Part shown: positions 26,200 through 48,677 of the stretch, one piece after another
How positions within the stretch are numbered: the stretch's first letter is position 1
Layout of the letters: each line of letters opens with the position of its first letter
Origin: Isoetes taiwanensis
Taxonomy: Eukaryota > Streptophyta > Lycopodiopsida > Isoetales > Isoetaceae
Assembly: GCA_021234155.1 (NCBI GenBank)
Contig: JAJEKV010000051.1
Location: 5,460,698-5,524,697 of the forward strand
Reading direction: 5' to 3'
Length of the DNA stretch: 64,000 nt
Position numbers and translations under genes: made by a program
Notes under the pieces: generated by a model
The model's database searches: none
What the model saw: only the letters and a program-made list of their open reading frames with translations
Told to the model about the DNA's origin: nothing

Positions 26200-26429
26200 G
26201 GAGGAGATGGCTTTCCACAGTGGATGCAAGACCTACTTGGTCAAATGGAGAATGCACTATATTAGATGGCAAGAGAACAATAACTCTACTCAACAAATTA
26301 GGTGAGTTTGAATCTCTCAATTTTATTGAAGAAGACTTATTGGTTCCAAATCTTTTTGGGGAATATGAAATGGCTATTGCTGTCTCCAATGCAAGTTCAG
26401 AACCATCAGCAAAGGATGATGCATCTTCA

Positions 26430-26963: not shown

Positions 26964-27045
26964 AGAATTGTATATGTTGGAGATCTATTCAAAAAGGAAG
27001 ATGAAGGTAAGGTCACTCAAATTTTAGAGAAATGGAAGGACATTT

Positions 27046-29100: not shown

Positions 29101-29921
29101 TCTTTCCCCTAGTCATGAACAACTCACACACTCCATTACAGCCCAACCACTTTTAAAAAATGCTAAAATTCCTATCGAAAATGACCTCTCAATGCTCATG
29201 GCAACACATTCTCTATCAGAAACAAAGTAGAGAGAGAAAGGTGCACATCCTCAACACAAAGTTTGCAAGGTCAAAAAGTTGGCCTAAGCACTACCAATAT
29301 TCTAAGTTTGAAGTGCTCTTACCATTATGAGATTTGCAAAACATGCCACGTCACCACATATCATCGACCTCACCAAGAAAAATGCCACATCATCATCACA
29401 AGTCATCCACATCATTTTCTCATCTCTCAAAAGTTTTTGACTAGGAGGAAGATTCTTTGCCACATCATCATGCCATGTCATCATGAGACTACCCACTCAC
29501 ATACCAAACTTGCCATATCATCATTTCCTAGCCATTTTGTTCAAAAATAAAAATCTTTTTTTCAAAGAAAGATTCTCCCATGAAGAAGGGTATCAAAAAA
29601 AGATGCCATTTGGTGCGAAAATGTTCCAAAAAGACCTTGCTTTGACCTTTAAATTTGAATTATTGGGATTCGTGCCTTAGCTCATGAAATTAAAAAATGT
29701 TTCCTATACCCCCCAAAAAAAAAAAAAAAAAAAAAAAAAAGACCTCATTTCACCCAACCCCCCGTCGCCACGTGGTACTCTCAGGGGTGTGGGGCGGCGA
29801 CGGGCTGAATCCCACATGAAGCATATCTTGCCTGAAAAAATTTCGAACCCTAAAAGCGTCAGGCCAAGATCCGGCCTTTTTGTCGGATCTAACTAAGCAA
29901 TCATGAGCCTGAGCTCCTGCA

Positions 29922-30110
29922 TTGGACTTTTTTGCATCAAGAAACCTTAAACCCGCCCAAAGACAAACAAAAAAACTCAAATGCCAAGAACAGACCGGAA
30001 TGATAAAATTTAAAAAAGGGAAATCATCTCAAAGACGGGGTCGGCTTCTGCATGAGTTTATTGACCTTTGCAACTTGTTGCTTGATTGGTTTGATGAGCT
30101 TCGATTGTGA
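29922..30110 (+). CDS. Small unidentified ORF, duplicated at 33641
   Basis: A 62-codon ORF (MDFFASRNLKPAQRQTKK ... FIDLCNLLLDWFDELRL) is identical in both tandem units. It may be the first exon or 5' leader of the unidentified gene whose exons follow at 31040. No family is recognised and translation is unproven. Confidence 0.3.
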   Translation: MDFFASRNLKPAQRQTKKLKCQEQTGMIKFKKGKSSQRRGRLLHEFIDLCNLLLDWFDELRL

Positions 30111-31034
30111 ATGACCTACCTTGCTTCAGAGTTTCTGCAGACCTGATGCAAATTCAATGAATTGATTATATTCTGTTACTTTGATCCTATGCCCAAGACT
30201 AAGATCTTTGATATGTACCTTTTTCATGATGTGCAATTGAGGGAAAAACCCGAGTTTGGTAAGAAAAAGTTGCTTTTGATTTCACTTTAAAATAGACTTT
30301 TGAGATGAAAGATACTCTAAATAATGCATTCTAAGTGTCACACCACAAATGATGTTGTTGCATGCATTGTGAATCGCATATAAGAGAAAGGCAGGAAGAA
30401 GATAAAGTTGCTTAGAATAGACTCAGCCTTTTGAAAGAAAAAAAGGAGAACCTTACAACGAATCTAAATATAGTTTTTGGATTGTAGCAGGCTTAGTATT
30501 CATGCCATACAACATTGCGTTAGTATCAAAAGTTATTCAACACCCATATAAAAGCTATATCTAGCACAAAAATACAACTAGTAATAGGACTATCAGATTA
30601 GATTCTTTGTTTTCATGCACAAAAAAATATTAGTCAGAAAACAATCTATAGCAGTATTACCAACAAATCATTGAGCAAGATCCTCAGGGTGCATACTCCA
30701 GGGTATCCAAGGAACACAAACCATAAAACAAAAATTTGAAAGGCAGCCTACAAATTGAGTGTCTTAAAAGAGCTCTCGGGTTGGGCTGTTGGCTCAAATT
30801 TGACTGGGTTAGGGAACTCTATATCTTTAGATCTGTTTGGGTATTTGTTGCTGACTTTCTGGGGTATAATCAAGATACACTTGAGAAGCTTTAGGAATTG
30901 GAATTGAGCAAAAAAATGATATGAAGATCATTTGGTGCAACTTTTGCTGGAACTATTCTTTTACTGTTTTGGGAAACTGATATCTTCTTGATAATTGAGC
31001 ATTATCTCAGCAAGTTTTCAGAAAAGAGTGGTCG

Positions 31035-31690
31035 CCTTTAGCAATCTGGAGGTCCTGTACCAGTGAAGTTGGAGGTTCTGCCAGGAATACCTCCAATAAA
31101 CCCCGCCCACTGCATGCTATCTGATGTCAGGACTATCCTGTTTGGTTTGCATGCAGTGTATGTGGCTGTGGAACGGAATGGCCTTGGCCGCCGACAATAC
31201 TGGGATAATTCCATGCCATCTGATGATTTGGGTGACTCTATATGTAGTTTGTTTGCTGTACAACTTCAATTGTGTGCTTGTTTTGTTTTCTTTGAGCATG
31301 GTTTGTGCTCATGATGCCTTTTTGCAGGGTTGATATCGAAAGCAATGGGAATTCTGTGAGGGAGACATGGCATCCCATCTTAAGCTTGGACCCCTCCTCG
31401 ATAAGCTCCAGAATTGATGCATCCCGTCCTGATCCTCAGGCGTATCCTCCTAAGGGTGAACAAGCCTTCACTGCAGAGGAGTTCATAACAAGCATTGTGC
31501 AGGTTGGCACCGAGGCCCACAAAATTGCCGCTTCCCTTAGGATCTTGAGGAGGCAGTTGACAAATTTTTATGTGGCTATTGATTGCGATTTCTAATGTTG
31601 TTTGGGAGCAACTTGGGGCTCCAAATCCTGAGTTGTACGCACTGAGATCATACATGAGCCTTGCTGGGTCTGCTGACCCAGGAGATTTGC
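31035..31690 (+). pseudogene. Exons of an unidentified plant gene, copy 1
   Basis: One exon (about 31035-31248) reads KLEVLPGIPPINPAHCMLSD, LFGLHAVYVAVERNGLGRRQ and WDNSMPSDDLGD, ending at a GT donor. The next, after a TTTTTGCAG acceptor at 31326, reads GVDIESNGNSVRETWHPILS, RPDPQAYPPKGEQAFTAEEF and VQVGTEAHKIAASLRILRR. A frame change then leads to SNVVWEQLGAPNPELYALRS and YMSLAGSADPGDLPP. The wording looks like conserved eukaryotic protein, but I cannot name the family. Copy 2 differs by small indels that break the frame elsewhere. Confidence 0.5.
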
Positions 31691-31807
31691 CACCTTGATG
31701 TTGTCATCAGGCGGGCTGCATTTGGAGAACCTAGCTTTGTCTTTTTGCTGTTGTGTGAAGTCTTCTTATTGTGCAGTTGCATGTCGGTGGCATTTCTGCC
31801 ACATGTA

Positions 31808-32788
31808 TGTGACGTTCCAAGGGAATATATGCCATAAAGACGTATATTCCTGGACCCGTCACCATACAAGTCTACCTAGGTAGCCTTGTATGCCTTGGAT
31901 AAGTGGCAAGGGGTGCACATCTAAGTTAATTGCTTAACTTAGATAACCTTAGGATAAGGCCCATTTCCACATGGCCTTATCCTATTGGAGCAACCGCCAC
32001 ACGGCCTCATCCTAGTGGTGCCACGTGGCATCCCACGTGGACCCACACCTATATGAGCTCTAACCCTAACCCTAGACCCTTTTCCACGACCTAGCTTTTG
32101 AGCTCTCATCCCCGTGCGAAACCCCGTTTGAGAGCACCGTTAAATCATAGTCTAGCACTGGGCGGCGGCCCACGGAGGGTGTGTATGATCGTGGGGAGCA
32201 AGCCTTGAACCCGTCTCACGAGCATGGAGGCGCCGAGGGATGGGAGGAAGCTTACGGAGGAGGTAGGTTGAGTAGAGTTCATGTTAGTTCATCACGGAAG
32301 TTAGCACTCCGGATGGGTTAGTGATTCGTGTCTAGAGTAGAGCCACCCTAGATCCTTTGTTGAACATCTTGAACCTAATCAAGGAACCCTAAGCGATAGT
32401 TAGATATGTATGATTAAGTTAAGATGTTCATATGATGTGTTCATGATGATTATGTGATGATGGTTGATCATGTTGTTCCTCTTGTGTTGGGGCGGGGGTA
32501 GAGACCTAGGGCCATATGTAGTATGCTCTAGTGTAGATCCCTTAGTTCCTATTAGTTCTTGGCTTGTGCATAGGAAACCCAGGGCTATGGAAGCTATGAT
32601 GTGACTCGGCACCACACAGCGGGGCTAGAGGCAAGATGGAGGTGGATCCTGCCAGAAGTGGGGGCCGGGGGATCCCACGATTGGGCTAGGCTTATGATTA
32701 CGGTCACTTAAATTGTGGGCGGGCATGGGTCCGACACCTCACGGGGCAATGGTATAAGCCACGCCTCTCAAAGAGTTGCAAGTGTGAC
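31808..32788 (+). repeat. Partial LTR (first about 980 bases) in unit 1
   Basis: It begins TGTGACGTTCCAAGGGAATATA directly after ATGTA, exactly as the 5' LTR does at 35522. It stops at TTGCAAGTGT, well short of the LTR end. It is therefore a copy of the 5' junction of the retrotransposon, made by the tandem duplication. Confidence 0.9.
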
Positions 32789-33409
32789 ATGCTCCCTAGT
32801 CATGAACAACTCCACACTCCATTACAGCCCAACCACTTTTAAAAAAATGCTAAAATTCCTATCGAAAATGACCTCTCAATGCTCATGGCAACACATTCTC
32901 TATCAGAAACAAAGTAGAGAGAGAAAGGTGCACATCCTCAACACAAAGTTTGCAAGGTCAAAAAGTTGGCCTAAGCACTACCAATATTCTAAGTTTGAAG
33001 TGCTCTTACCATTATGAGATTTTGCAAAACATGCCACGCCACCACATATCATCGACCTCACCAAGAAAAATGCCACATCATCATCACAAGTCATCCACAT
33101 CATTTTCTCATCTCTCAAAAAGTTTTTGACTAGGAGGAAGATTCTTTGCCACATCATCATGCCATGTCATCATGAGACTACCCACTCACATACCAAACTT
33201 GCCATATCATCATTTCCTAGCCATTTTGTTCAAAAAATAAAAATCTTTTTTCAAAGAAAGATTCTCCCATGAAGAAGGGTATCAAAAAAAGATGCCATTT
33301 GGTGCTTAAAATGTTCCAAAAAAAGACCTTGCTTTGACCTTTAAATTTGAATTATTGGGATTCGTGCCTTAGCTCATGAAATTAAAAAATGTTTCCTATA
33401 CCCCACCCC

Positions 33410-33454
<45 letters not shown>

Positions 33455-34734
33455 AGACCTCATTTCACCCAACCCCTCATTAAGCCACGTGGTACTCTCG
33501 GGGTGTGGGGGCGGGCGACGGGCTGAATCCCATGATGAAGCATATCTTGCCTGAAAAAATTTCGAACCCTAAAAGCGTCAGGCCAAGATCCGGCCTTTTT
33601 GTCGGATCTAACTAAGCAATCATGAGCCTGAGCTCCTGCATTGGACTTTTTTGCATCAAGAAACCTTAAACCCGCCCAAAGACAAACAAAAAAACTCAAA
33701 TGCCAAGAACAGACCGGAATGATAAAATTTAAAAAAGGGAAATCATCTCAAAGACGGGGTCGGCTTCTGCATGAGTTTATTGACCTTTGCAACTTGTTGC
33801 TTGATTGGTTTGATGAGCTTCGATTGTGAATGACCTACCTTGCTTCAGAGTTTCTGCAGACCTGATGCAAATTCAATGAATTGATTATATTCTGTTACTT
33901 TGATCCTATGCCCAAGACTAAGATCTTTGATATGTACCTTTTTCATGATGTGCAATTGAGGGAAAATCCGAGTTTGGTAAGAAAAAGTTGCTTTTGATTT
34001 CACTTTAAAATAGACTTTTGAGATGAAAGATACTCTAAATAATGCATTCTAAGTGTCACACCACAAATGATGTTGTTGCATGCATTGTGAATCGCATATA
34101 AGAGAAAGGCAGGAAGAAGATAAAGTTGCTTAGAATAGACTCAGCCTTTTGAAAGAAAAAAAGGAGAACCTTACAACGAATCTAAATATAGTTTTTGGAT
34201 TGTAGCAGGCTTAGTATTCATGCCATACAACATTGCGTTAGTATCAAAAGTTATTCAACACCCATATAAAAGCTATATCTAGCACAAAAATACAACTAGT
34301 AATAGGACTATCAGATTAGATTCTTTGTTTTCATGCACAAAAAAATATTAGTCAGAAAACAATCTATAGCAGTATTACCAACAAATCATTGAGCAAGATC
34401 CTCAGGGTGCATACTCCAGGGTATCCAAGGAACACAAACCATAAAACAAAAATTTGAAAGGCAGCCTACAAATTGAGTGTCTTAAAAGAGCTCGGGTTGG
34501 GTCATTGGCTCAAATTTGACCGGGTTAGGGAACTCTATATCTTTAGATCCTGTTTGGGTATTTGTTGCTTTACTTTAAGGGTATAATCAAGATACACTTG
34601 AGAAGCTTTAGGAATTGGAATTGAGCAAAAAAATGATATGAAGATCATTTGGTGCAACTTTTGCTGGAACTATTCTTTTACTGTTTTGGGAAACTGATAT
34701 CTTCTTGATAATTGAGCATTATCTCAGCAAGTTT

Positions 34735-35410
34735 TCAGAAAAGAGTGGTCGCCTTTAGCAATCTGGAGGTCCCAGTGAAGTTGGAGGTTCTGCCAGGAAT
34801 ACCTCCAATAAACCCCGCCCACTGCATGCTATCTGATGTCAGGACTATCCTGTTTGGTTTGCATGCAGTGTATGTGGCTGTGGAACGGAATGGCCTTGGC
34901 CGCCGACAATACTGGGATAATTCCATGCCATCTGATGATTTGGGTGACTCTATATGTAGTTTGTTTGCTGTACAACTTCAATTGTGTGCTTGTTTTGTTT
35001 TCTTTGAGCATGGTTTGTGCTCATGATGCCTTTTTGCAGGGTTGATATCGAAAGCAATGGGAATTCTGTGAGGGAGACATGGCATCCCATCTTAAGCTTG
35101 GACCCCTCCCTCGATAAGCTCCGCATTGATGCATCCCGCCCCGATCCTCAGGCGTATCCTCCTAAGGGTGAACAAGCCTTCACCTGCAGAGGAGTTCATA
35201 ACAAGCATTGTGCGTGGTTGGCACCGAGGCCCACAAAATTGCCGCCTTCCCCTAGGGATCTTGAGGAGGCAGTTGACAAATTTTTATGTGGCTATTGATT
35301 GCGATTTCTAATGTTGTTTGGGAGCAACTTGGGGCTCCAAATCCTGAGTTGTACGCACTGAGATCATACATGAGCCTTGCTGGGTCTGCTGACCCAGGAG
35401 ATTTGCCACC
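34735..35410 (+). pseudogene. Exons of the unidentified gene, copy 2
   Basis: The same two exons as at 31035-31690 are present. The first is intact (KLEVLPGIPPINPAHCMLSD). The second carries indels that change frame after QAYPPKGEQAFT. The same intron and the same terminal SLAGSADPGDLPP are present. The LTR retrotransposon lies 110 bases downstream of that point. Confidence 0.5.
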
Positions 35411-35516
35411 TTGATGTTGTCATCAATGGCTGCATTTGGAGAACCTAGCTTTGTCTTTTTCTTTGTTGTGAAGTCTTCTTATTGTGCAGGTTGCATGTCG
35501 GTGGCATTTACGCCAC

Positions 35517-35521
35517 ATGTA
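35517..35521. repeat. Target-site duplication, left copy (ATGTA)
   Basis: ATGTA immediately precedes the 5' LTR start TGTGACG. The same five bases follow the 3' LTR at 48673-48677. A perfect 5-bp duplication is what Ty3/gypsy integrases leave. Confidence 0.95.
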
Positions 35522-37164
35522 TGTGACGCCTTCAAGGAATATATGCCATAAAGACGTATATTCTGGACCTCGCCACCATACAAGTCTACCTAGGTAGCCT
35601 TGTATGCCTTGGATAAGTGGCAGGGTGCACATCTAAAGTTAATTGCTTAACTTAGATAACCTTAGGATAAGGCCCATTTCCACATGGCCTTATCCTATTG
35701 GAGCAACCGCCACACGGCCTCATCCTAGTGGTGCCACGTGGCATCCCACGGGACCCACACCTATATGAGCTCTAACCCTAACCCTAGACCCTTTTTCACC
35801 CCTGACCTAGCACCTCGAAAGCTCTCATCCCGTGCAAAACCCCGTTTCGAAAGCACCGCAAATCATAGTCTAGCCCGGAGCAAAGCACCTCGGAGGGTGT
35901 GTATGATCGTAGAGGGAGCAAGCCTTGAACCACGCCTCACGAGCATGGAGACGCCAGGGATGGGAGGAAGCGCGAGGAGGTAGGTTGAGTAGAGTTCATG
36001 TTAGTTCATCTGGAAGTTAGCACTCCAGATGGGTTAGTGATTCGTGTCTAGAGTAGAGCCACCCTAGATCCTTTGTTGAACATCTTGAACCCTAATCAAG
36101 GAACCCTAACTGATAGTTAGATATGTATGATTAAGTTAAGATGTTCATATGATATTGTTCATGATGATTATGTGATGATGGTTGATCATGTTGTTCCTCT
36201 TGTGTTGGGACGGGGGGTAGAGACCTAGGGCCATATGTAGTATGCTCCTAGTGTAGATCCCTTAGTTCCTATTAGTTCTTGCCAGTGCATAGGAACCCAC
36301 CTGCTATGGAAGCTATGATGTGACTCAAAGACCACACAACGGGCTAGAGGCAAGATGGAGGGTGGATCCCCGCCGAAAGTGGGGGCTTCGGGATCCCACA
36401 AAGGCTAGGCTTATGGTCTGGTCACTCGCGTGTGGGCCGAGCATGGGTCCCACACCTCCCGGGGCAATGGTGTCGCCGCCTCTCAAGAGTTGCAAGTGTC
36501 AGCTTTGGCTCTTGTTTTGGGGGTTCAATCGGTGCGAATCGCGGTGCGCCACGATTCTCTAGCCGCCTGTGGAGCCTCTAGGACCCCTGGGAGGGGAGAT
36601 GCAACCCTTCCTACCTCGCGTCGACCGGAGATGCAACCTGGAGTAGTCCCCGATGGGTGATGCCATGGGATTGCGTGATCCCGGAAGGTTAGAGTCATGC
36701 CACGCCTTTGATCTAGCCCATCCGCAAAGTATGCACGTGAGGGGCGGATGGAGTGGTCAACCCTAGCCATTGTCTTATGCCAGCCCGCCATTGTTATGAT
36801 TCTGTCTCGCTTCTATCTTGAGGCCTATCCAGTCAGTCGATTTCCTTTCGTGTCGGAGCCACGGGTAGGAGCTCTCATGTTTTATGGCATATGATTATGT
36901 TCTTTGCATCTATGGATATGCGATTGAGCTACCCCTCGAGGTAGCATATTGTATTGTATTGCTAGTTCTGACGTGTTATGCTTCCGCTGTGATAGAAGCC
37001 CATAGGGAAGGGCGCAAGAAGACACCTTTCAGGAACCTTCCCGCGACCGGGGAGGATTCCGAAAAGGGATAGATGGAGGGCCCTGGTGGCGTTGATGAGC
37101 CGGACGAGGGATTTCTGCCGAAAGTGTACGGTAAGGCGCCGTATGTTTAGCAGGGAGCGTCACA
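35522..37164 (+). repeat. 5' LTR
   Basis: It starts TGTGACG and ends CGTCACA. It shares with the 3' LTR a series of short perfect inverted repeats in U3, two CACGTG G-boxes (one damaged in this copy), a CTATATGAG TATA-like word at about 35760 and a telo-box-like CTAACCCTAACCCTAG just after it. Differences from the 3' LTR are mostly small indels clustered at CG-rich words. Confidence 0.95.
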
Positions 37165-37165
37165 A

Positions 37166-37177
37166 TGGTATCAGAGC
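37166..37177 (+). other. Primer binding site (initiator tRNA-Met)
   Basis: TGGTATCAGAGC begins one base after the 5' LTR. It is complementary to the 3' end of plant initiator tRNA-Met, the usual minus-strand primer of plant gypsy and copia elements. Confidence 0.95.
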
Positions 37178-37731
37178 GATGTTCTTGGTTGACCAAGAAC
37201 TAGCACTGACCATAACCATGAAAGTAGTCTAACAGACCTATAGGGGTGCGAAATAAAAATTTCCACCATCGAACCTCGAAATAGGGGAAAAATTTTTCAC
37301 CTAGGTAGTGGGTCCGAAATTAGGTTAAGAAGCAAATGAGTCAAATTCACCTTCTAGTAAAATTGGAGTGAAAATTATGCATCTGCATCAAATTTCACCT
37401 AAAATGGGTCGAAGAATCATGCCAATCGGAGACCTGGGTGAAAAATGGCGCAAATCTATAATTAATACTTCAAACTATTAGGAAATTTGAAATTCTTAAG
37501 GTATAATACGAATTTTAGCATATGTATTAGAAATTAAACATATATTAATAATAAGGGTACTATGGGGTAATTAATAAGGGGGGCTAATAAGTAGGCCTAT
37601 TAATGGTAGGAGAATATTCCCAGGGACCCTTCCTTTTAAATAGTCTTGCCACCTCATTTTTCCCTCCAAACTTTCCTCCACCTTATCTCTCTTGATCAGC
37701 CTTACGTCATCTGTTTTCCCCACCGTTAAGT
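37178..37731 (+). promoter_or_regulatory. Leader with TATA-like word before the H3-like gene
   Basis: About 550 bases of AT-rich leader. TTTTAAATAG at 37634 lies about 95 bases before the ATG. ACGTCA at 37704-37709 equals the hexamer core known from plant histone promoters, but here it sits only 23 bases before the ATG, so this may be chance. A transcription start separate from the LTR is an inference. Confidence 0.35.
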
Positions 37732-38828
37732 ATGGCAAGAACCAAGCAGATAGCTAGGAAGTTCGGCGAGCGACCCACGCTCTCGCAGGTAGCAGCGGGA
37801 CGCCACACGAAGAAAATCCTGGAGCACCTCCGACCTAAGAAGGGCGAAGAGGAGTTTCCCTCCAGCAGCAGCGACGCAACCTATCACGACGCTGAGGAGG
37901 ACGCACCTAGCAGTAGCTCTTCATCAGCAGGCACCCAGAGGACCGGAGAATCCCGTCACTTCGGGCCTTCGGACACCGAGGTGGAAGAACAGGTGGAAGA
38001 GCAGCCCCAGCACCAGACCCAAGAGGCGGGCCCTTCAGTGCCGAAGAAGAAGGGCAAGGAGAAGGTTGTTGAGTGGCCAGAAGAGAGGGCCGCTAGGAAG
38101 AAGAGGGAACGGGAGCGGGAGTTGCGGCAGCAAGAGAGAAGAACGAAGAGAAGGAACGACCGGCCTCGCAAGACCGTCGTTATTGAAGAACCGCAGCGGA
38201 AGGAGGTAGAAGAGGAGGTCGAAGAGGAAGAAAACGAGGAGGACGAGCGCGCCGGGGAACCCTCAAACCCCGACGCTAGACCACCTTACCCAAAGTGGCC
38301 CGAGCCACCTAAGGTGGTCAAGAAGCAGAAGGCGGGCGAGCGTCCGTTCGCCCTGAAGGAGGAGCGCCTGTTCAGACGCCGCCTCAAAGCATACCAGGAA
38401 TACCTCCGTCGGTGGAAGAGGTATAATGACTGGTATTGGCGTCAGAACGTCGACCGCTACGTGGAGGGGGGGCGTCCAGCCAAGAACCAGCCCAAGCCGC
38501 CACCGCCACCACCGGAGAAGGCGAAGAAGGTCCATCACAGGCCTAATTCGATACACTCCCGTGTCTTCCGGGAGATTAAGCACTTTCAACAGTGCACTAA
38601 TCTCCTGATTAGGAAGGCACCGTTCGAGCGGCTCATGCGGGAGGTGATGCAGGAGTTCGTCACCGACTACAGGACGGTGCCGCCACAACTCGGTGCCGCA
38701 GGTGGTCCGAGGCCGAGCTCACCCAGTTGTTCGAGGAAGGGAACCTCTGCGCGATCCACGCGAAGAGGGTGACCCTGATGCCCAAGGACATACACCTGGC
38801 GCGTCGCATCCGCAAGGAACGCCCTTGA
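37732..38828 (+). CDS. Histone H3-like protein with long linker, carried by the retrotransposon
   Basis: Three parts are visible. (1) Residues 1-28 imitate the H3 tail: [10 protein letters not shown], keeping R2, T3, K4, R8, K9 and K27 but with T6I and S10F. (2) Residues about 30-265 form a linker: Ser/Glu-rich, then Lys/Arg-rich ([17 protein letters not shown]), acidic, an aromatic helix ([16 protein letters not shown]) and a Pro run. (3) From residue 268 comes the H3 fold: [36 protein letters not shown], then after one frameshift near 38700 [15 protein letters not shown] and [16 protein letters not shown] with TGA at 38826. Without the frameshift the product ends as an unrelated tail at 38772. 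Loop 1 has canonical-H3 length, so it derives from H3 rather than CENH3. The ORF is GC-rich and intronless, unlike its surroundings, suggesting capture. Confidence 0.9.
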
Positions 38829-39611
38829 GGATGCAAATTTTTGTGTAAAATAGTGTAATTGTTAAGTTTTTCCCCTATAAATATAAAATTTTGTTGTAAA
38901 CTGACCTTAATTCTTGTATGAAAATGTGTTTAAGTAGCTCAAATTTTACTTTAGTTTTGACCATTGAAATTGGAATGTTGAAAGAAAAATTAATTAGTTA
39001 GAAACCCTAGCTTAATTAGTCAAAAAAATTGCCAAACTGGCGAAACCGGGTCGCATCGCGAAAAACCTGTCTGCGCCCTCGACGCAGAGCTATTTCTCGC
39101 GACGTCACCCGATTTCGGCATTTTGATACTAATACGTGTCCAATTCAAGTAAGAAAAGTTGCTAGTTAGGTTAGAAGCATGCTGAAAACTTATGTTAGGA
39201 TGTTTAAATTCCCAAAAACCTTTCATAGGAATAGAAATGACCCGAAACCGGGTCGCATCGCGAAAAACCTGTCTGCGCCCTCGACGCAGAGCTATTTCTC
39301 GCGACGCCACCCGATTTCGCCCAAATTTGCCCAGATTGACCAATTTTGACCCAACAAACTGTCATGTAGTGTTTCTTGCTTTGCTTTGCTTAGAATTGCA
39401 CTTCATGGTAGTTCATTTGGACACCCATGGCCATAGATTTGAGGTCTTCTCTCATCAAGAACCCCTGTGCACAGAACCCGAGGTATTCCTAGTCTATAAA
39501 AAGGGCCTCATTTGTCATTTTTCCCCCATCAGAACTGCTCTCAGCCCCTTTGGCGATTTCCTAGGCCTTTGCTCATTCCCATCAACCATTTTTCATAGCC
39601 ATCTTTGCTCA
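38829..39611 (+). promoter_or_regulatory. Intergenic region with duplicated hairpin and a TATA box
   Basis: A block of about 76 bases (GAAACCGGGTCGCATCGCG ... CGCGACG(T/C)CACCCGATTTCG) occurs at 39040-39115 and again at 39242-39317. Each copy folds: TCGCGA pairs with TCGCGA at the ends and CTGCG with CGCAG in the centre. Downstream, TATAAA at 39495-39500 (CTATAAAAAGGG) lies about 110 bases before the next ATG, a good match to a plant core promoter. Confidence 0.6.
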
Positions 39612-40433
39612 ATGGCGCCATCAAGCTTTGTTAGATGGTACAATGACTCCAATCACATCCGTGAATTCCCTGCTGAGCAAGCCTTTCATGTCTTTGATCA
39701 TCTCTTTGATCTTCATGCCACCTTAACCAGAACTCCTTACTACACTGACATCATTTGCCAATACGATCAGAACATTCTACCCTGGGAAGTTAGCTTGCCA
39801 CCTAGGGGAGGGAAATGGGTTTCCTTAGACACTCTTACCCAAGCCATAGGTGGGGGATCCAGGGGCAAGAGTAGGCTGTGGGATAGAACCAGAAACATGC
39901 CAGACTACATGACCTGTAAGCATCATAGGCATAGATACGTTTCAAACCAAGCAGCTTTAGCCTTATTCATGCAGTACAGGGCAGTCAACCAACCAGGGGA
40001 GCCGTCAATTCAACCTTTGGATTTGGCACCTCTCGACACTCGGGCAGCCCAGATAAGCATCCATGAGATCGAGACTACGACGTACGAGCATTATGGCTCC
40101 ACATCAGAAGCACCTATGTTGCAGATTGAACAGGATTACGAAGAGGAGGAGGAAGAGAACCCAAGTTGGGAGATGAGGGAGGCAAGAAGGATGGAGAGGC
40201 GTCTAGCTCGACAACAGGAAACACTAAGGCGGGATTTCGAGCCACCAATGGGTATCACAGCCCTCACCCCGGTGATCATCGACGACGAGGAGTATATATT
40301 CGCCACCGATATCCTCAATCTTCCCTATTGTCGAGAGGAGGGCCTCAGGATCGATGAGCTCCTAAGCCTTATGGCACAAGAGCAGGGTAGTGACTTCATC
40401 GACTACTCCTACCAAGAGATTCCACCGAGGTAG
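39612..40433 (+). CDS. Retrotransposon accessory ORF 2, unknown function
   Basis: ATG at 39612 (MAPSSFVRWYNDSNHIREF) opens a frame of 273 codons ending at TAG. The open frame extends upstream to 39192, but that part runs through the hairpin repeat and is probably untranslated. Features: an N-terminal globular-looking part rich in aromatic residues, DYMTCKHHRHRYVSNQAALA, an acidic run (DYEEEEEENP), an Arg-rich helix (REARRMERRLARQQETLRR) and an acidic C-terminus. It does not resemble gag, envelope or integrase. It is uninterrupted, unlike pol, which suggests it has been under selection. Confidence 0.6.
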   Translation: MAPSSFVRWYNDSNHIREFPAEQAFHVFDHLFDLHATLTRTPYYTDIICQYDQNILPWEVSLPPRGGKWVSLDTLTQAIGGGSRGKSRLWDRTRNMPDYMTCKHHRHRYVSNQAALALFMQYRAVNQPGEPSIQPLDLAPLDTRAAQISIHEIETTTYEHYGSTSEAPMLQIEQDYEEEEEENPSWEMREARRMERRLARQQETLRRDFEPPMGITALTPVIIDDEEYIFATDILNLPYCREEGLRIDELLSLMAQEQGSDFIDYSYQEIPPR

Positions 40434-40438
40434 CCGAA

Positions 40439-41126
40439 ATGACACTCCTATGCGGGGAAACTATGTCTGACATCCAGCGTATCAACAGATTAGGTATATG
40501 TTTCAAAGAAATAGAACCCATCATCCCGTAAGAAGAGTTTCAGAAATCCAAAGCAAAGTTGTACAAGCCGAAGAGGCCCAAGCTCCAAATTTACCACCAA
40601 GGCGCTCGGGAGCATGCATGAATCATCTAGCAGCATCAATTTGGAGAACGCAACAACTATGTGGAGAGACCACGAAGATCTTACCGCAATAGATGTGTTC
40701 GGCGAGGCGGCTCAAAGGAAGAGTACGGGAGCCACGGGGCCGCACAGGGGTAAATCACTCAGGTACTATCTTCCGGCCCTTAGCCAAGGACAGATGATAG
40801 TCTTCCACAAGGAGTTCAGCCCAAGGGGTGAAGAATCCGTGGCGCTCCTCATAGCACTCTCAGGCTTTGGACACCACGCCAGGATAGATTTCGGGATGGA
40901 CCATGTGATTCTCTTCAAAAGATCTGTAGCCCTTCATGCCCTCGACTTCGCAAGGGGCCACCTCAGGGATGCGCACTTGTCAGTAGTGGCGGCAACTGCA
41001 CCAGAACTCCCAGCACCACAGGTGGCAAGAGCATTGGAGGGAGGATCGGCGGCCAGAATCCTGCAGAACATGGGCAAGGGCACAGGATTCAAGAAAATCA
41101 AGAACTTCTTCAAGCGACATCGTTGA
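40439..41126 (+). CDS. Retrotransposon accessory ORF 3, unknown function, probably interrupted
   Basis: An ATG at 40439 opens a short frame (MTLLCGETMSDIQRINRLG) that stops at TAA near 40530. The main open frame is 40614-41126 (170 codons). It contains HRGKSLRYYLPALSQGQMIV, EESVALLIALSGFGHHARID, MDHVILFKRSVALHALDFAR and a basic C-terminus, GFKKIKNFFKRHR. The two may be one gene broken by indels or two small genes. No family is recognised. The basic tail would fit a nucleic-acid-binding or membrane-binding role, which is inference only. Confidence 0.45.
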
Positions 41127-41360
41127 TGGAAGACTTGTTTTGTTAATTAATTAAAGTGTATTGTAACTCTCCTTTCGCTATTATCATGTAATTCATGAAA
41201 TGTACTTCTAAATACTAATTAATGTCTTACCATGATCTTGACTTGTAAGTGGAGTTTTCATATGATTTCTTTTGTACCTAACAAACAATTTAATTGTAAG
41301 CAAAAAATCAATCTTGTGTAACTTAATAACAAGCATTGATGATTAATCCTTGCAGCAAGG
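41127..41360 (+). promoter_or_regulatory. Spacer with splice-acceptor-like site before gag
   Basis: An AT-rich region ends in GATTAATCCTTGCAG (about 41341-41355), a good plant 3' splice site. The gag reading frame is open immediately after it. The site could let gag-pol be made from a spliced RNA that skips the three upstream ORFs. Confidence 0.45.
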
Positions 41361-42560
41361 AACACAGGCTCAGGTTCCCAAGGTCAAGGCCGACACCACC
41401 AGTGGGTACCCAGAAACCTATTTGGACGTGATCAAGATGACAACAACGACGATATGACGCCGGAAGCAATCAACGCAAGGCTCGTCCAGATGAGGAACCA
41501 GATGCATCAGCTGATCCACTGGGCCACCCCATTGATGAATGCCCAAGAATATGCACCTGCTCCACCACCACCTCCACCGCTACCTCAGCAAGGCATCGAG
41601 GAAGGTCCACAGCAGGAGGGGCAGGACAATCAAGGGAATGTCAGAGACAGGAAGAGGAAAAGGAGAAACAGAAGGAGTCCAACACCACCTAGCTCCAGCT
41701 CATCGCACACACCCCGCATCATGGCAGGTTCTAGCTCAGAAAGTGAGTCCGACACTCCACAGGTAAGAGCCAGGGCAAGGAAGGAAGATGATTATCAAAA
41801 GAAAGTTGACAGTGCTATGAGCAATGTGTGGAAGACTAGGAAGTTGGGTCAGTTCTCAGGGAAGGACAGGTCATGTATGGAGGCGTAAGCACGGCTTGAC
41901 GAGATGGAAGAGTTCGGCAACTCTTATGGCATGAAGGATAAGGACATAGGGAAGGTTGCTACAAAGAAATTTGATAGGGGCAGCTAGAATCTGGTGGAAA
42001 GGCTATGCGAAGTCCAACAAGCTCAAAAGGAACAGTTGCAGATTCAAGACCTTCAGCAAGGCTTTTCGCAGACATTATGTGCCTAGGTCACATACTAGCA
42101 GGCAGATCCAGCAGTTCTATAGATTGAACCAGGGTACATTGTCGGGCCACAAAGTATACAGAGGAATTTATGCTACTTAGACTCCATGTTCCCGAGGTCG
42201 AAAGGCAAGCAAATAAACTTACATTGAGGGATTGAACAAAGAATATCAAAAGGCTAGTCCGAGCAATCAACCCCAAGTCAAGGCGTAGTTTGAGGATAAA
42301 GCCATAAGTTTGAAGAAGCTCCAAAGAACGCCGTGAGAGACAATCGGCCTTCAAAGGAAAGTCAACCCGGGCAAGCATCAAGGGCAAGAACAGAGTAAGC
42401 AATCAAAAACTACGCCATCGAGGCCAAAGAAGATGAAAGAGCTCGTGGTAAGAACTTTGGGGACCGTAAGTCGCAGAATGCATCAGTGGGGCAGATGCTA
42501 AAGCCGATTCTAGACACCGACGAAAGAGAAGAGACAGGAATGTATTGAGAAGAAGCTTTG
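41356..42560 (+). pseudogene. gag of the chromovirus (frameshifted)
   Basis: After the putative acceptor the frame reads RNTGSGSQGQGRHHQWVPR and continues through the ATG at 41454, a Pro-rich stretch, a Lys/Arg-rich stretch (RDRKRKRRNRRS) and KKVDSAMSNVWKTRKLGQF to a TAA at 41886. Capsid-type sequence continues in another frame: ARIWWKGYAKSNKL, FSKAFRRHYVPRSHTSRQIQ, FYRLNQGTLSGHK (41956-42180). This is the Retrotrans_gag signature. The rest toward 42560 is broken in all frames and no zinc knuckle could be read with confidence. The domain family is clear; function in this copy is doubtful. Confidence 0.75.
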
Positions 42561-42594
42561 TTCAGTGCTTCCACCGTAGGCAATCAACACATGA

Positions 42595-43110
42595 TTGCCC
42601 ATTCGCCATGCAAAGCGACTTGGCGAGCTTATGGATTGGGGTTCACCAACAGAAGAAGATAAAGACGACGACCAGCATGAGGCCCAGGACTTCATAGATG
42701 GTGAGTGCCACATATGTGCAAACATTGAGTCTGATGACATTGAAAATCAGTCAACAGTCATTGCGGCTGAGGGGATCATAGATAGCAGTCCATATCTAGT
42801 ATTGATAGATACAGGTAGCTCTCATAACTTTGCCTCTCCTAGGCTGGCTGCCCTAATGAAGAACAAGGTATTGAAGTCTAAGCCAAGGCCAGTTGCTATG
42901 GCAAACGGCGCCATTCGGCATACTAAGGGGAGGAGGATCACATTCGACATAGACCTTAGTGGAAGTAAATGGCCGATGGGGGCAGAGGTTATGGAGATTG
43001 GAAGGTATGACTTTATAGTAGGAATGGAGTTCCTAAAGCCAGCGAAAGCCATGGTCGACTGCGACCGCAATGAAGTCGCCATGACAGCACCGGACGGCAC
43101 CAAATTCATA
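42595..43110 (+). CDS. Chromovirus aspartic protease (N-terminal part of the pol ORF)
   Basis: The ORF opens by 42595 and is continuous with RT. The active site is [19 protein letters not shown] near 42800, a canonical D-T-G-S. It is followed by [20 protein letters not shown] and [18 protein letters not shown], the usual I-L-G-x-x-F-L end of gypsy proteases. It would process Gag-Pol in the virus-like particle. This half of pol is intact here. Confidence 0.85.
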
Positions 43111-43872
43111 GTGAGAGGTAAGAAGACAACTTCTTCTATGCAGTGTATTTCTTTGAAGCAACTAAGGAAAAGTATAGAAAGAAATAAGGTGGATTACATC
43201 TTGAGATTGGAGGCAATTGAGCCCAATAAGCAGGATGGAAACGATCAAAAGGGAAAGCAATTGCCCAAGCCAGTAGCAAGGCTTATTTCTGAATTCAAGG
43301 ATGTATTTCCGGATGAAATCCGGCAGCTACCACCTTATAGGGGTGTGGAGTGTGAGATCACATTAGCTCCAGATGCTAAGCCTACAAGCAAGGCACCATA
43401 CAGGATGAGCACCCCGGAATTGATTGAGCTCAAGAAGCAGCTTCAGGAATTGCTTGAGCTTGGGTTCATTCGAGCAAGTGTGTCTCCTTTTGGAGCACCC
43501 ATACTCTTCGTGAAGAAGAAAGATGGCAGTCTAAGAATGTGCATAGACTATCGCCAGCTCAATAAGCAGACGATAAAGAACAAGTATGCATTGCCAAGGG
43601 CAGATGATTTAATGGACCAGCTCCAAGGAGCAAAGGTATTCTCTAAGATTGATTTGAGGTCAGGGTACCACCAAATAAGAATAAAAGAAGAGGATATCCA
43701 TAAGACCGCATTCAGAACGCGGTATGGTCACTTTGAGTTGACAGTAATGCCCTTTGGATTGTCGAATGCTCCAAAGAACTTTTATCGCCTCATGAACGAC
43801 GTCTTCGGGGATTTTCTAGACGAGTTTGTCATTGTCTTCTTCGACGACATTCTAGTCTACAAAGTCCATTGA
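43111..43872 (+). CDS. Chromovirus reverse transcriptase (fingers and palm)
   Basis: RT motifs: [93 protein letters not shown] (usual Thr of NAP-x-T-F replaced by Lys-Asn), and the catalytic [11 protein letters not shown] near 43845. The ORF ends at TGA 43872, a few codons after the active site, by a frameshift. Palm and thumb sequence goes on in the next frame. The order and wording place it among plant chromoviruses. Confidence 0.9.
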
Positions 43873-44640
43873 AGATCATAGTCAAAGATTTGAGAAGGGT
43901 GTTAGAAAAGTTGAGGCTGCATCGTTTGTATAGAAAGCTCTCCAAATGCCACTTTGCTACTTTGAAGAGAGGGAGTACTTGGGCCATGTCATATCGGCGG
44001 AAGGAATCTCCACCGACCCCGCAAAGATCGAAAAAGTAGTAGATTGGCCAGCTCCAAAGAATGTGGCGGAAGTAAGAAGCTTTCTAGGTCTGGCAGGTTA
44101 TTACAGAAAGTTCGTGAAGGACTTCGCTAAGTGGGCGTCCCCCTTGACGGACCTCACTAAGAGTGTTAAGGTGAAAGATTGGAGAACACATTGGTTAGAA
44201 AATGTTCAAGCTTCATTTGAAAAAGCTTAAGGAGGCCTTAACAACAACACCGGTGCTAGTTCTCGCCAGATCCGACAAGGACAAGATAGTAGCAACAGAT
44301 GCAAGTAAGATAGCAAATGTGGGAGTCCTTATGCAAGAAGGAAGAGTGATAGCTTATGATTCCAAGAAGTTGAACGACACCGAGCAGCGCTATCCAACCC
44401 ATGATCAGGAACTTCTAGCTATTGTCAGGGCTCTTCGTATTTGGAGGCATTATTTGCTTGGGAGGAAGTTTCGCTTAGATAATCTTGATCACCGAGCCTC
44501 CAATACATCTTTACCCAACCACTCCCCGAATCTAAGGCAAAGGAGGTGGATGGAATTCCTAGAAGAGTATGACTTTGAGATTGCTTATAAGCCGTAAGTT
44601 GAATGTGGTCACGATGCTCTTTCTAGAAGACCTCTTGAGA
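43873..44640 (+). pseudogene. Chromovirus RT thumb and RNase H (frameshifted)
   Basis: RT end: [40 protein letters not shown]. RNase H: IVATDASKIANVGVLMQEGR, SKKLNDTEQRYPTHDQELLA, IVRALRIWRHYLLGRKF, RRWMEFLEEYDFEIAYKP, with the D/E/D pattern mostly kept; the third-Asp segment (usual FT-T-D-H) reads RLDNLDHRASN. Breaks occur near 43870, 43960, 44220 and 44597. GHDALSRRP after the last break closes the domain. Confidence 0.85.
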
Positions 44641-45965
44641 CCGTAATTCATTGTAATGCTATATCAACTCTTTCGAGTGGGTATGGCAAGAAAAATTGAG
44701 GAGACATTACCATCCGATGGTGATTTCAAGGAGGTATGGGAAAGCCTTTCTAGAGAGGCTATAACAACAGATAAGGAACGAGAAGCCTTCAAGCATTATA
44801 AGAAGGAAGGCAACTTGTTGTATCATAAGCATAAGTTGTGTGTGCCCTAATCATCGGGGGTAAGGAAGCTAATTCTCCATGACACACACAACAGCCCAAT
44901 AGCGGGCATGCAGGGTTTTATGAAGACCTACTTCAAGATTCAAGTAGCTACTTTTGGCCGGAATGAAGAAGCGATAGCAAGATATATTCGCGAGTGTCGG
45001 TTGTGCCAAAGAAACCAAAGCGAGCAGCGGCCAAATTCCAGGTGCCTTGAACCTCTAGCGTGGTCGAATGCGAAGGGGAAGTGGTAAGTATGGATTTTAT
45101 CACATGACTTCGCAAGACTCTTCGAGGCAAAGATGCATTGATGGTCGTAGTAGACAAATTATCTAAGATGGCACATTTTGTGCCTTGTAGAACTACCGAC
45201 ACAGCATTAGATACTGCCAATCTATTTGTGAAGGAGATTTTTAGGCTCCATGGCATGCCTCGGGAGATAATATCGGATAGAGATTCCAAGTTTATGAGTG
45301 CTTTTGGCGGGACCTCTTCAAAGACCATTCGCATCGAAGCTCTCCATGAGCACGGCATATCATCCCAAACAGACGGTCAGACGGAGAGGACGAATCGAAT
45401 CATTGAAGATATGCTTAGAAGCTTTGTGTGGAATAAGCAGTCCAAGTGGGATGAGTACATCCACTTGGTGGAATTCGCCTACAATAGTGCCAAAATGTGA
45501 GTCATCTCGGATGTCTCCTTTCATGGTAAATTACGGGTACGGCAGGGTGCTTAACCCCGGACACTTGGCCAAATCCCGTGTCAAAGGTTGAAGTGTCCCA
45601 GCAGATGCTAGGAGATATGCGCCAGTTGGTGGAAGAAGTAAGGGGTTACCTCCTAGCAAAGAAGAAGTCGGCGTAAGAGTGTAGCCGGCAAGCAAACCGG
45701 ACCATAAGAGAGTTCAAAGTAGGCGATAGCGCGTGTGGTTGAAGATCAAGGTCAAGCAAGCTAAGCTTGGATTGAGAGTTGCAAGAAGCTTGCCCCCCTA
45801 GATGGGCTGGTCCGCTCAAGATTTTGGAGAGAGTGGGCTCCCAAGCCTACAAGTTGGATCTCCCCGCCCATCTCAAAGTTCACAAGGTTTTCCACGTAAG
45901 TTTATTAAAAGGCACAATCCTAACCCCGAGGAGGTCTTGGATACTCCAACTTTGTTGGAAATGAC
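44640..45965 (+). pseudogene. Chromovirus integrase (frameshifted)
   Basis: Zinc-binding part: LILHDTHNSPIAG followed by YIRECRLCQRNQ (H..H..C..C), 44865-45015. Catalytic core: MVVVDKLSKMAHFVP downstream of the first Asp region; the second Asp in EIISDRDSKFMSAF; the Glu in SSQTDGQTERTNRIIEDMLR, 45138-45500. The C-terminal GPY/F-like region reads WAGPLKILERVGSQAYKLDL and LKVHKVFHVSLLK, 45802-45910. Breaks near 44850, 45090, 45320, 45500, 45600 and 45780 are small indels. Confidence 0.85.
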
Positions 45966-45989
45966 GGAAGAGCAAGTGGAAATTGTGCC

Positions 45990-46146
45990 CGAAGTTACTT
46001 CTTGATAAGTCATTCAAGAAGACTAGAAGGTCTCGAGCCTCCTCCAAGATTTGGTCAAGTGGAAGCACTTGCCCGTGGAAGACGCAACTTGGGTATTGAA
46101 GCAAGATTTGGAGAAGCAATACCCGAGTTTTTATGAAGGAGTTTGA
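45990..46146 (+). pseudogene. C-terminal chromodomain remnant
   Basis: After the integrase, one frame reads LLLDKSFKKTRRSRASS and the next QDLVKWKHLPVEDATWVLKQ, then DLEKQYPSFYEGV and a stop at 46144-46146. LVKWK-x-LP-x-E-x-ATW is the chromodomain signature of plant chromoviruses, here with one frameshift inside. In this group the chromodomain directs integration to particular chromatin. Residues of the aromatic cage cannot be judged with certainty because of the shift. Confidence 0.8.
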
Positions 46147-47013
46147 TGGGCTAGTCGCCTCCCGACTTGGTCGAATCCCGACTCGCCGTGAGGTTAGCTT
46201 AGTATGCTTCTTAGTTAGTTTCTAGCTCTGCGCATGTATTCTAGTTAGTGGAATACATATGCCGTAATCTTGGAACATGTGGGAGATGATGGGATAAGCC
46301 TTTAAAAGGCTCCCTAGGCAACATGCACCAAGAGGTGCGCATGACCACTAGGGTCATGCGAGAGAGAGAGGAAAGGCATGGTGCGCGATGATGGGACATC
46401 GGTCGGATGCTCTCTATGCCACGATGTGGGGGTCGCACACCTGGCCATAGGGGGGTCATGGTGAAGGTCAAAGTGATCATGTGCGATGATGGGATCGTGA
46501 GACGTTCCCTAGCTTAAAACCCTTGGGGCATGATGCACTAGGGGTACTTTCGACCGGTAACCGAAAGTACAAGGTAGCACTTGATCATGGGCGATGATGG
46601 GATCATCTTAAATGGTCCTTAAGCTCAAATCCGAAAGGGCCATGATCGAGTGCAAGGTATGGTAAGGGGGGTGGTCCCCTAAAACCACAAACTTATTAAT
46701 TAAACTAACGTAATGTGCTCCATGTGCAGGCAAGTGAGAAGGAGCTTCGAGGTGGGGCGCATTACGAGAAGATGGGGGAACCATAATTTAGATTATGAAC
46801 CCTAATAACTCTTATAATAATGTTTTGAATTATTGTAAGAAATAACCTTGTTAAGGCTATATAATTTTGTATAAGTACAAATATAGCCTAAATTTTGACA
46901 CTTAACTTTAATAGGAAGTTGATTGTTTAAATTAAACTTGTGTGTATGATCTTATGTGTTTTGCAGGATAGATATGCTCGTCACCTTAGCGCAATGCTGA
47001 GGACAGCATCGTC
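46147..47013 (+). other. Structured 3' region with about 100-bp quasi-repeats
   Basis: The word GATGATGGGA recurs at 46285, 46387, 46485 and 46593, spacing 98-108 bases, three times within GCGATGATGGGA. Each unit carries short hairpins, such as AGCCTT/AAGGCT (46297), GCATGACC/GGTCATGC (about 46338) and GTACTTTCG/CGAAAGTAC (46544-46570). There is no ORF. This is probably untranslated RNA of the element. Confidence 0.6.
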
Positions 47014-47015
47014 CT

Positions 47016-47028
47016 AAGGGGGGGAGAA
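47016..47028 (+). other. Polypurine tract
   Basis: An A/G run, AAGGGGGGGAGAA, ends directly before the 3' LTR start TGTGACG. It is the expected plus-strand primer position. Confidence 0.92.
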
Positions 47029-48672
47029 TGTGACGTTCAAAGGGAATATACGCCATAAAGACGTATATTCCTGGACCCGTCACCATACAAGTCTACCTAG
47101 GTAGCCTTGTATGCCTTGGATAAGTGGCAAGGGGTGCACATCTAAGTTAATTGCTTAACTTAGATAACCTTAGGATAAGGCCCATTTCCACATGGCCTTA
47201 TCCTATTGGAGCAACCGCCACACGGCCTCATCCTAGTGGTGCCACGTGGCATCCCACGTGGACCCACACCTATATGAGCTCTAACCCTAACCCTAGACCC
47301 TTTTCCCTGACCTAGCACCTGAGCTCTCATCCACGTGCCCGAAACCCCGCTTTAAAGCACCGCTCGTCATAGTCTAGCCTCGAGCAAAATTCCCACGGAG
47401 GGTGTGTATGATCGTAGAGGGAGCAAGCCTTCGAACCACGTCTAGGAGCATGGAGACGCCAGGGATGGGAGGAAGCGCTCGAGGAGGTAGGTTGAGTAGA
47501 GTTCATGTTAGTTCATCCGAAGTTAGCACTCCGTGATGGGTTAGTGATTCGTGTCTAGAGTAGAGCCACCCTAGATCCTTTGTTGAACATCTTGAACCCT
47601 AATCAAGGAACCCTAACTGATAGTTAGATATGTATGATTAAGTTAAGATGTTCATATGATATTGTTCTTGATGATTATGTGATTATGGTTGATCATGTTG
47701 TTCCTCTTGTGTTGGGATCTGGGGTAGAGACCTAGGGCCATATGTAGTATGCTCCTAGTGTAGATCCCTTAGTTCCTATTAGTTCGACTTTGTGCATAGG
47801 AACCCACCGGGCTATGGAAGCTATGATGTGACTCAAAGACCACACAACGGGGCTAGAGGCAAGATGGAGGGTGGATCCCCGCCGAGTGGGGGCTTCGGGG
47901 GATCCCACAAGTGGGCTAGGCTTATGGTCGGTCACTTCGGTGTGGGCGAGCATGGGTCCCACACCTCCCAGGGCAATGGTGTCATGCCTCTCAAGAGTTG
48001 CAAGTGTCGGCTTGGCTCTTGTTTTGGGGGTTCACGCTCAGTGCGAATCGTGTGTGCCGCCCGCGATTCTCTAGCCAGCCTGGAGCCTCTAGACCCCGGA
48101 AGGGGAGATGCAACCCTTCCTACCTCGTCCGGACCCGGGGAGATGCAACCCGAGTAGTCCCGATGGGTGATGCCATGGGATTGCGTGATCCCGAAGGTTA
48201 GAGTCATGCCACGCCTTGATCTAGCCCATCCGCAGTATGCATGCACAGGGGGCGGGATGGAGTGGTCAACCCTAGCCATTGTCTTATGCCAGCCCCGCCA
48301 TTGTTATGATTCTGGTCGCTCTATCTTGAGGCCTATCCAAAGGCCGACTTCCTTTTCGTGGCTCCGAGCCACGGGTAGGAGCTCTCATGTTTTATGGCAT
48401 ATGATTATGTTCTTTGCATCTATGGATATGCGATTGAGCTACCCCTCGAGGTAGCATATTGTATTGTATTGCTAGTTCTGACGTGTTATGCTTCCGCTGT
48501 GATAGAAGCCCATAGGGGAAGGGCGCGCAAGACACCTTCGTGTCCCCTTCCCGCACTGCGGAGGATTCCAGAGTGCGGGATAGACGGAGGGCCTGTGCGG
48601 TTGATGAGCCGGACGGGGGATTTCCTGCCGAGTGTACGGCCGGGCGCCGTATGTTTAGCAGGGAGCGTCACA
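47029..48672 (+). repeat. 3' LTR
   Basis: It spans TGTGACG to CGTCACA. U3 contains three perfect inverted repeats: 47043-47071 (GGAATATACG/CGTATATTCC), 47142-47163 (CTAAGTTAA/TTAACTTAG) and 47172-47204 (AGGATAAGGCC/GGCCTTATCCT). Two CACGTG G-boxes lie at 47243 and 47255. TATATGAG is at 47271, followed by a telo-box-like CTAACCCTAACCCTAG. It is closely similar to the 5' LTR. Confidence 0.95.
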
Positions 48673-48677
48673 ATGTA
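48673..48677. repeat. Target-site duplication, right copy (ATGTA)
   Basis: ATGTA follows the 3' LTR end and equals 35517-35521. Confidence 0.95.

Follow-up and report, generated by a model that had tools for sequence, protein, structure and literature searches.

Does an LTR retrotransposon of Isoetes taiwanensis carry a gene for histone H3 as part of its own equipment, and if so, what would the element use it for? The question is raised by positions 37732 to 38828 of the window, the whole stretch of 64,000 nucleotides analysed here, for which an H3-like gene inside such an element had been predicted. ATG, tail, alpha-N and frame break were all found in this place, and sequence comparison with further copies supports the view that an H3-derived gene is an inherited part of the element.

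The element in the window and its first ORF

Positions 35522 to 48672 of the window are occupied by a chromovirus of the Ty3/gypsy type, flanked on both sides by a perfect target-site duplication (TSD) of 5 bp. Its parts are:

35517–35521, no strand: 5′ TSD, ATGTA
35522–37164, + strand: 5′ LTR, 1643 bp, TG...CA, aligned to the 3′ LTR
37166–37177, + strand: primer binding site (PBS), TGGTATCAGAGC
37732–37761, + strand: ORF1, tail, with the ATG at 37732
37762–38562, + strand: ORF1, linker, element-specific, without homologue found
38563–38673, + strand: ORF1, H3 fold 5′ of the frame break (alpha-N, alpha-1, start of alpha-2)
38703–38828, + strand: ORF1, rest of the H3 fold in the +2 frame (remaining alpha-2, alpha-3, C-terminus, including the stop)
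39612–41126, + strand: ORF2, broken in the window copy, without known domain
41343–41888, + strand: gag-region ORF fragment 5′ of pol, assigned by position, no Pfam domain above cut-off
42595–43872, + strand: protease and reverse transcriptase (PF08284, PF00078)
44199–44597, + strand: RNase H (PF17917)
45108–45500, + strand: integrase core fragment (PF00665, below Pfam cut-off)
46048–46143, + strand: chromodomain (PF00385, E 7.6e-6, above cut-off, 39-aa piece)
47016–47028, + strand: polypurine tract (PPT), directly 5′ of the 3′ LTR
47029–48672, + strand: 3′ LTR, 1644 bp
48673–48677, no strand: 3′ TSD, ATGTA

Since the two LTRs, the ATGTA duplication at both sides, the PBS and the PPT enclose ORF1, the gene lies inside the element, as predicted. 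The PBS TGGTATCAGAGC is presumably the complement of initiator tRNA-Met. We assign the element to the chromoviruses because it encodes protease, reverse transcriptase, RNase H and an integrase fragment together with a chromodomain at the end of the integrase; LTRs, TSD, PBS, PPT and the order PR-RT-RH-INT were all found, the integrase of this broken copy being below the Pfam cut-off. ORF1 had been placed where gag is expected. It is indeed the first ORF after PBS and leader, but it does not replace gag, as it is followed by the long ORF2 and then by gag-pol.

In the window the element is old and dead, with ORF1, ORF2 and pol all broken and LTRs that are 10% apart (163 differences at 1619 aligned sites). 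The ORF1 frame is broken inside alpha-2 after about position 38673, the +2 frame then being open to the stop at 38826–38828, and ORF2 contains four stops within its match. Between ORF1 and ORF2 a 77-bp sequence is present twice (39041–39319), 202 bp apart and 99% identical.

The 5′ flank of the element and the first ~980 bp of its LTR are part of a tandem duplication of about 3.7 kb (29107–36499, 95% identical), which is probably later than the insertion because it is less diverged than the two LTRs. The surroundings are rich in other features. A protein-kinase fragment on the minus strand (517–1116; PF00069, E 3e-28) resembles plant calcium-dependent kinases by eye. LINE-like reverse transcriptase ORFs were recognized by eye at 6925–8181, 13574–14896 and 57641–60186, and PF00078 was present in the two that were scanned (6925–8178 and 58234–58776). 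A DDE_Tnp_4 transposase (9281–10084) and a Myb/SANT-like ORF lie in 8722–10087 and 12246–12812 (minus strand), a pair presumably as in a PIF/Harbinger element. A 446-bp direct repeat (18499–18944 and 20361–20800; 96% identical, 1.9 kb apart) is possibly a small LTR element, and fragments of another retroelement occupy 25738–27803 (RNase H-like PF13456; integrase core PF00665, below cut-off). Long TC runs are found at 5256–5363, 13201–13344 and 15139–15244.

Unbroken ORF1 copies from elsewhere in the genome encode 360–379 aa, consisting of H3 residues 1–9, a long linker with long charged runs and a ~90-residue H3 fold at the C-terminus, so that in total it exceeds H3 by about 235 residues. In all three unbroken copies scanned, PF00125 matched with E values of 1e-27 to 1e-29 and reached profile position 122 of 122, and an H3 match in the PDB (5e-29) covered H3 residues 47–133 (87 columns) without a gap. 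This places the C-terminal part in H3, a check that had been proposed together with the prediction. From the broken window copy the first piece matched Pfam Histone with E 6e-8, while the 43-aa second piece by itself matched nothing in Pfam. The expectation that both ends match H3 is thus confirmed by tail residues 1–9 and by the fold, and chance or convergence, already considered implausible, is ruled out by E values down to 1e-29, by both ends and by the many copies. When annotated proteins were searched with the window ORF1 piece, four proteins were matched, all with a histone Pfam domain. The unbroken copy L011 gave 1888 matches (7999 candidates scored), of which the best 120 all have a histone domain. 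The linker of L011 alone matched none of these 124 annotated proteins; this database is weak on masked transposons, and absence elsewhere is not implied.

Of the 89 positions from 45 to 133 (H3 numbering), 55 have the residue of canonical H3 as the majority residue of ORF1. R63, K64, R72, R83, C110, H113, K115, R116, T118, K122 and L126 are present in all 24 unbroken copies, R69 in 22 and D123 in 23; we take these thirteen residues to be DNA contacts or part of the H3-H3′ interface. K56 is lost in 24/24 copies (Q in 23), position 79 is V instead of K in 24/24, and the alpha-2 chaperone site reads L-T-T-R in 24/24, unlike host H3. CENH3 has a longer loop 1 and a divergent tail; a CENH3 origin of the window family is ruled out by the gapless alignment through loop 1 and by the canonical tail start.

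The tail is kept over a short distance. K4 and K9 are found in 24/24 unbroken copies, and past K9 the tail bears no likeness to H3. S10 is absent, position 10 varying freely between A, P, F and Y; K14 is replaced by P and K18 by M in 24/24, and K23 is lost in 24/24 and K27 in 22/24. Of the modifiable lysines K4, K9, K14, K18, K23 and K27, K4 and K9 alone are therefore kept. The claim that K27 is in register does not hold, as only 2 of the 24 copies have Lys at this position. We consider the first ORF of the window element almost certainly to be an H3-derived element gene.

Copies of the family and selection on ORF1

The genome (1,658,258,908 bases, 1110 contigs) was searched with the window ORF1, which gave at least 124 scored loci including the window, 87 of the 124 without internal stop. 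A second query reaching the end of the fold gave at least 130 scored loci, 103 of the 130 without internal stop. The union of both queries places window-type ORF1 at 148 loci or more. Out of the 123 loci that the first query gave besides the window, 40 were fetched, namely the best-scoring ones with a match from residue 1; C801 and C1007, which scored better but whose matches start later, were dropped. ORF1 is unbroken in 24 of these 40 copies, and 35 have the MARTKQTARK tail start. The leader was matched over at least 200 bases in all 40, the LTR end in 38 and some ORF2 in 37, the ORF2 match being missing in three.

For the 24 unbroken copies, which were picked for likeness to the window copy and form pairs that are not independent, the pooled Nei-Gojobori dN/dS was 0.132 for whole ORF1. 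Among the parts (same copies, pooled), residues 1–10 gave the lowest value (0.028), followed by the H3 fold (0.075), which is below the linker (0.153); alignment columns 11–38 gave 0.154. The mean differences at codon positions 1, 2 and 3 of ORF1 were 0.087, 0.066 and 0.280, compared to 0.102 in the leader and 0.138 in the LTR end (22 copies each), and 0.303 in the 250 bases 3′ of ORF1. An intact ORF in other copies and purifying selection had been named as ways to check the prediction: the 24 unbroken ORFs among 40 fetched copies, the 148 or more loci and a dN/dS far below 1 bear it out on both counts. Passive capture would be marked by near-identity to the host gene and by relaxed selection; observed were 55 of 89 shared fold positions and a dN/dS of 0.13.

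ORF2 is 504–507 aa long and unbroken in 9 of the 40 fetched copies. Its codon positions 1, 2 and 3 differ at 0.111, 0.074 and 0.318 (10 copies), the pattern of a selected gene. Nothing in Pfam matched ORF2 above cut-off, and the PDB offered no convincing relative; its single-sequence structure models had a mean pLDDT of 37 and 35, too poor for use.

It had been stated that the prediction would fall if other copies lacked the gene and the window copy were due to a single chance insertion. A lone chance insertion into one copy is ruled out by the many loci, the 24 unbroken copies among 40 and the low dN/dS. For the presence of the gene in other copies the picture is mixed: among the best 85 ORF2 loci a listed window-type ORF1 was found within 6 kb in 25 (within 10 kb in 26) but none in 60, a comparison of best-match lists that misses other ORF1 types and does not imply absence. 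With 60 of 85 loci in this class, ORF1 may be optional or replaceable, so that some elements may be without ORF1 or may have exchanged it. On contig C1078 (20994065–20996349) an H3-like match lies 3′ of an ORF2 match, an order unlike that of the window element.

In Mantel tests, distances in ORF1 were weakly correlated with those in the LTR end (r 0.20, p 0.08), and more strongly with those in the leader (r 0.43) and in ORF2 (r 0.84, 8 copies). Some mosaicism among the element copies is therefore likely. ORF1 forms part of the element, recurs at many loci, has kept its frame in 24 of the 40 fetched copies and, among these, shows strong purifying selection. This argues that it served the element, and we think it very probable, judging from these sequences, that it was useful while the element multiplied.

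The tail start was also followed on its own. ATG-MARTKQTARK is spelled by the genome DNA 516 + 535 = 1051 times, and the reversed-pattern control 0 times. With one mismatch allowed, 359 more were found (1410 in total), so 75% of the near matches are exact. The 95 places for which letters were available showed 54 DNA spellings of one and the same peptide; Ser at either Arg position, which the pattern allowed, occurred in none of the 95. Most of the 1051 tail starts lie beyond the listed window-type loci (148 or more), and may head other ORF1 families. Three exact tail starts with identical spelling are spaced about 5.8 kb apart on contig C217 (120970, 126779 and 132560).

A second H3-bearing family

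With canonical H3 as query, the best 150 of 9022 candidates were scored. Among these are 15 near-canonical H3 genes (96–98% identical, no stop). The other 135 are H3-like matches with 71–86% identity, most of them spanning H3 from about 25 to 135. Of these 135, 50 sit in frames of 400–520 aa and 18 in frames of at most 150 aa; the latter could be host variants or pseudogenes.

From the long frames we know a second family by three copies (L049, L050 and L051), L049 being the one that was followed to an LTR end. Their ORFs of 409–425 aa have an N-terminal part unlike the linker of the window family and the H3 part at the end. The H3 part is identical to canonical H3 at 83–84 of 98 positions and the H3 tail is absent, both in all three copies. 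Pairwise dN/dS of the H3 part was 0.035–0.045 for L049 versus L050 and L051, and L050 and L051 differ by zero amino-acid changes in this part. At the alpha-2 chaperone site this family has F-A-I-L. L049 shares its primer site with the window element, and its LTR end resembles the window LTR (80% in 167 columns); further downstream ORF2 is weakly matched (E 5e-7, against that one sequence). Its ORF1 as query gave 99 rows from 98 scored candidates. Residues 1–300 of the second-family ORF1 gave no match among annotated proteins, in a database that is weak on masked transposons and from which absence elsewhere is not implied. Merging the loci from the queries of both families and from canonical H3 gave at least 331 non-native H3-type loci on 110 contigs.

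Possible roles of ORF1 and comparison with known systems

That an element family has kept its own version of H3 suggests that such elements interfere with chromatin or build it themselves. As the overall explanation we tentatively favour that the element's H3 variant is assembled with host H4 and alters chromatin or silencing at element DNA. The ORF1 protein would pair with host H4 and, together with it, enter nucleosomes on or near element DNA. These nucleosomes would be unable to bear all of the usual marks for silencing and the cell cycle, and the element DNA would thereby be transcribed or persist despite H3K9me-based silencing. H4 pairing and nucleosome entry are the simplest reading because the residues that we take to be DNA contacts and H3-H3′ interface are kept; that ORF1 works in nucleosomes is, as far as sequence can tell, somewhat probable. 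The normal marks would be impossible because S10, K14, K18, K23 and, in 22/24 copies, K27 are lost, and the second family lacks the whole tail. As the fold residues are kept, the marks lost and the chaperone sites as described, a role in anti-silencing or chromatin marking is favoured, although anti-silencing as the actual purpose of ORF1 is possible rather than probable. Equally open to doubt is the wider idea that the lineage makes its own chromatin, depositing H3 variants with rebuilt tails, either followed by the long insert or exchanged for an element-specific domain, together with host H4 on its own DNA and so controlling silencing or integration.

The element's own chromodomain is in line with assembly into nucleosomes, as it points to a chromatin-reading life cycle. 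The same is true for the second-family F-A-I-L, which resembles the TAIL/SAIL of viral H3s that were judged likely to enter chromatin (PMC9145170). The L-T-T-R of the window family does not resemble these and is not host-like, which speaks against this reading, since a non-conserved chaperone site is considered a sign of viral histones that are not assembled into nuclear chromatin (PMC9145170). A nucleosome with the window ORF1 may also be abnormal because of the lost K56 and the V at position 79. Further points against assembly at element DNA as a means of escape are the retention of K4 and K9 in 24/24 copies, which is odd if H3K9 methylation is to be avoided, the 60 of 85 best ORF2 loci without listed window-type ORF1, and the weak link between ORF1 and LTR distances.

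The retention of K9 in 24/24 copies and the lowest dN/dS at residues 1–10 (0.028) would fit another function, targeting: ORF1, seated in chromatin or else part of the integration complex, would guide the integrase to chosen sites via its linker, its N-terminal domain or methylated K9, which in one variant is read by the element's own chromodomain. The presence of this chromodomain and the direct fusion of an element-specific part to the H3 fold agree with such a tether. We nevertheless regard it as unlikely: the listed loci spread over many contigs (at least 331 merged loci on 110 contigs), so that no simple site preference is visible, the second family lacks the H3 tail in 3/3 copies, and the methyl-lysine cage of the window chromodomain is presumably short of one aromatic residue.

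Rather improbable is that ORF1 is a packaging protein which condenses element RNA or cDNA in the particle or pre-integration complex. For DNA to be wrapped, an H3 fold should require H4 as its partner, and no H4 was found in the element ORFs scanned by Pfam; moreover, H3 tail residues 1–9 seem needless for packaging. The unfamiliar chaperone site of the window family would suit a role outside host chromatin, as would the long charged runs of the linker, and a precedent exists in some giant-virus histones, those of marseillevirus, which package their genomes (PMC9145170).

Slightly less probable again is a decoy, in which MARTKQTARK would imitate the H3 tail and occupy H3K9 methyltransferases or readers, the fold providing only stability or H4 binding. 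Residues 1–9 are kept while position 10 varies freely, and the genome has 1051 exact tail starts, which speaks for a decoy; a fold more constrained than the linker (0.075 versus 0.153) and a second family that keeps the fold without the tail argue against it. Finally, it is very improbable that ORF1 is a passenger without a role, acquired when one element happened to take in a host H3 gene. Against this stand purifying selection in both families, ORF1 unbroken in 24/40 copies, 148 or more window-type loci, the existence of two families and residues that deviate from host H3 in 24/24 unbroken copies; in its favour, host-gene capture by transposons is known, with decay as the most common fate (PMC13317346).

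If it is true that the lineage makes its own chromatin, element-borne H3-type genes (at least 331 loci, 1051 tail starts) would far exceed the 15 host H3 genes. Resistance of transposons to H3K9-based silencing and guidance of a chromodomain integrase by the element's own histone now become testable, and natural H3 proteins with replaced tails are a means to ask what the H3 tail does. They also carry a warning, as element-borne copies can swamp H3-like counts in plant genomes.

The original prediction held that no retrotransposon with an H3 gene had been described. Text searches of the open-licence PMC literature, which does not extend to preprints and most subscription papers, listed no paper describing a retroelement with a histone among their best matches, and to this extent the statement stands; a fungal hAT DNA transposon with H3 is known, however (PMC6710886). 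A review on gene capture by plant transposons (PMC13317346) does not contain the word 'histone' in its main text, nor do a paper on additional ORFs (PMC7264820) and the Isoetes genome paper (PMC8566536). Likewise, the main text of PMC9145170 contains 'retrotransposon' and 'retrovirus' 0 times and 'transposon' and 'transposable' once each, neither referring to a histone-bearing element. A survey of 121 angiosperm genomes (25,565 consensus sequences) lists 15 extra domains, and no histone is named among them in the text consulted (PMC9289625).

The Ty3/gypsy elements of orchids with an AlkB RNA demethylase (PMC9289625) resemble the present case in that an extra ORF with a host-derived domain is kept through family diversification, although the domain is a different one. 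VANDALs are DNA transposons. Their protein VANC is element-encoded and acts on host silencing of the element, which makes it a model for ORF1, but it is sequence-specific and not a histone (PMC5735166). Helentron-Cq-32A likewise has histone H4/H1 sequence in a mobile element, as fragments with a premature stop, a frameshift and indels, in eight copies (PMC4067079).

Closer are the single H3 proteins of xenomavirus, DSLPV1, Sylvanvirus and other viruses, which have 73–87% fold identity, are in some cases N-terminally extended and are thought to enter host nucleosomes (PMC9145170). The second family is like them in its fold (83–84 of 98); the window family differs by the long insertion between tail and fold, and here the H3 gene is carried not by a DNA virus but by an LTR retrotransposon of which the genome contains many copies. 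In the hAT DNA transposons of Dothideomycete fungi, an H3 gene was captured and multiplied, as here; Pyrenophora tritici-repentis has 26 putatively functional hAT/H3 copies, many of them transcriptionally active, and in Pseudocercospora fijiensis all H3 copies except the original were inactivated by RIP (PMC6710886). Unlike these, the H3-derived gene described here is a retrotransposon ORF, remodelled by a linker and by loss of the tail and maintained by selection. Histones had thus been described in viruses with DNA genomes and in DNA transposons of fungi, which carry them as cargo; a retroelement that keeps an H3 variant under purifying selection would show directly that a selfish element makes use of the basic unit of its host's chromatin.
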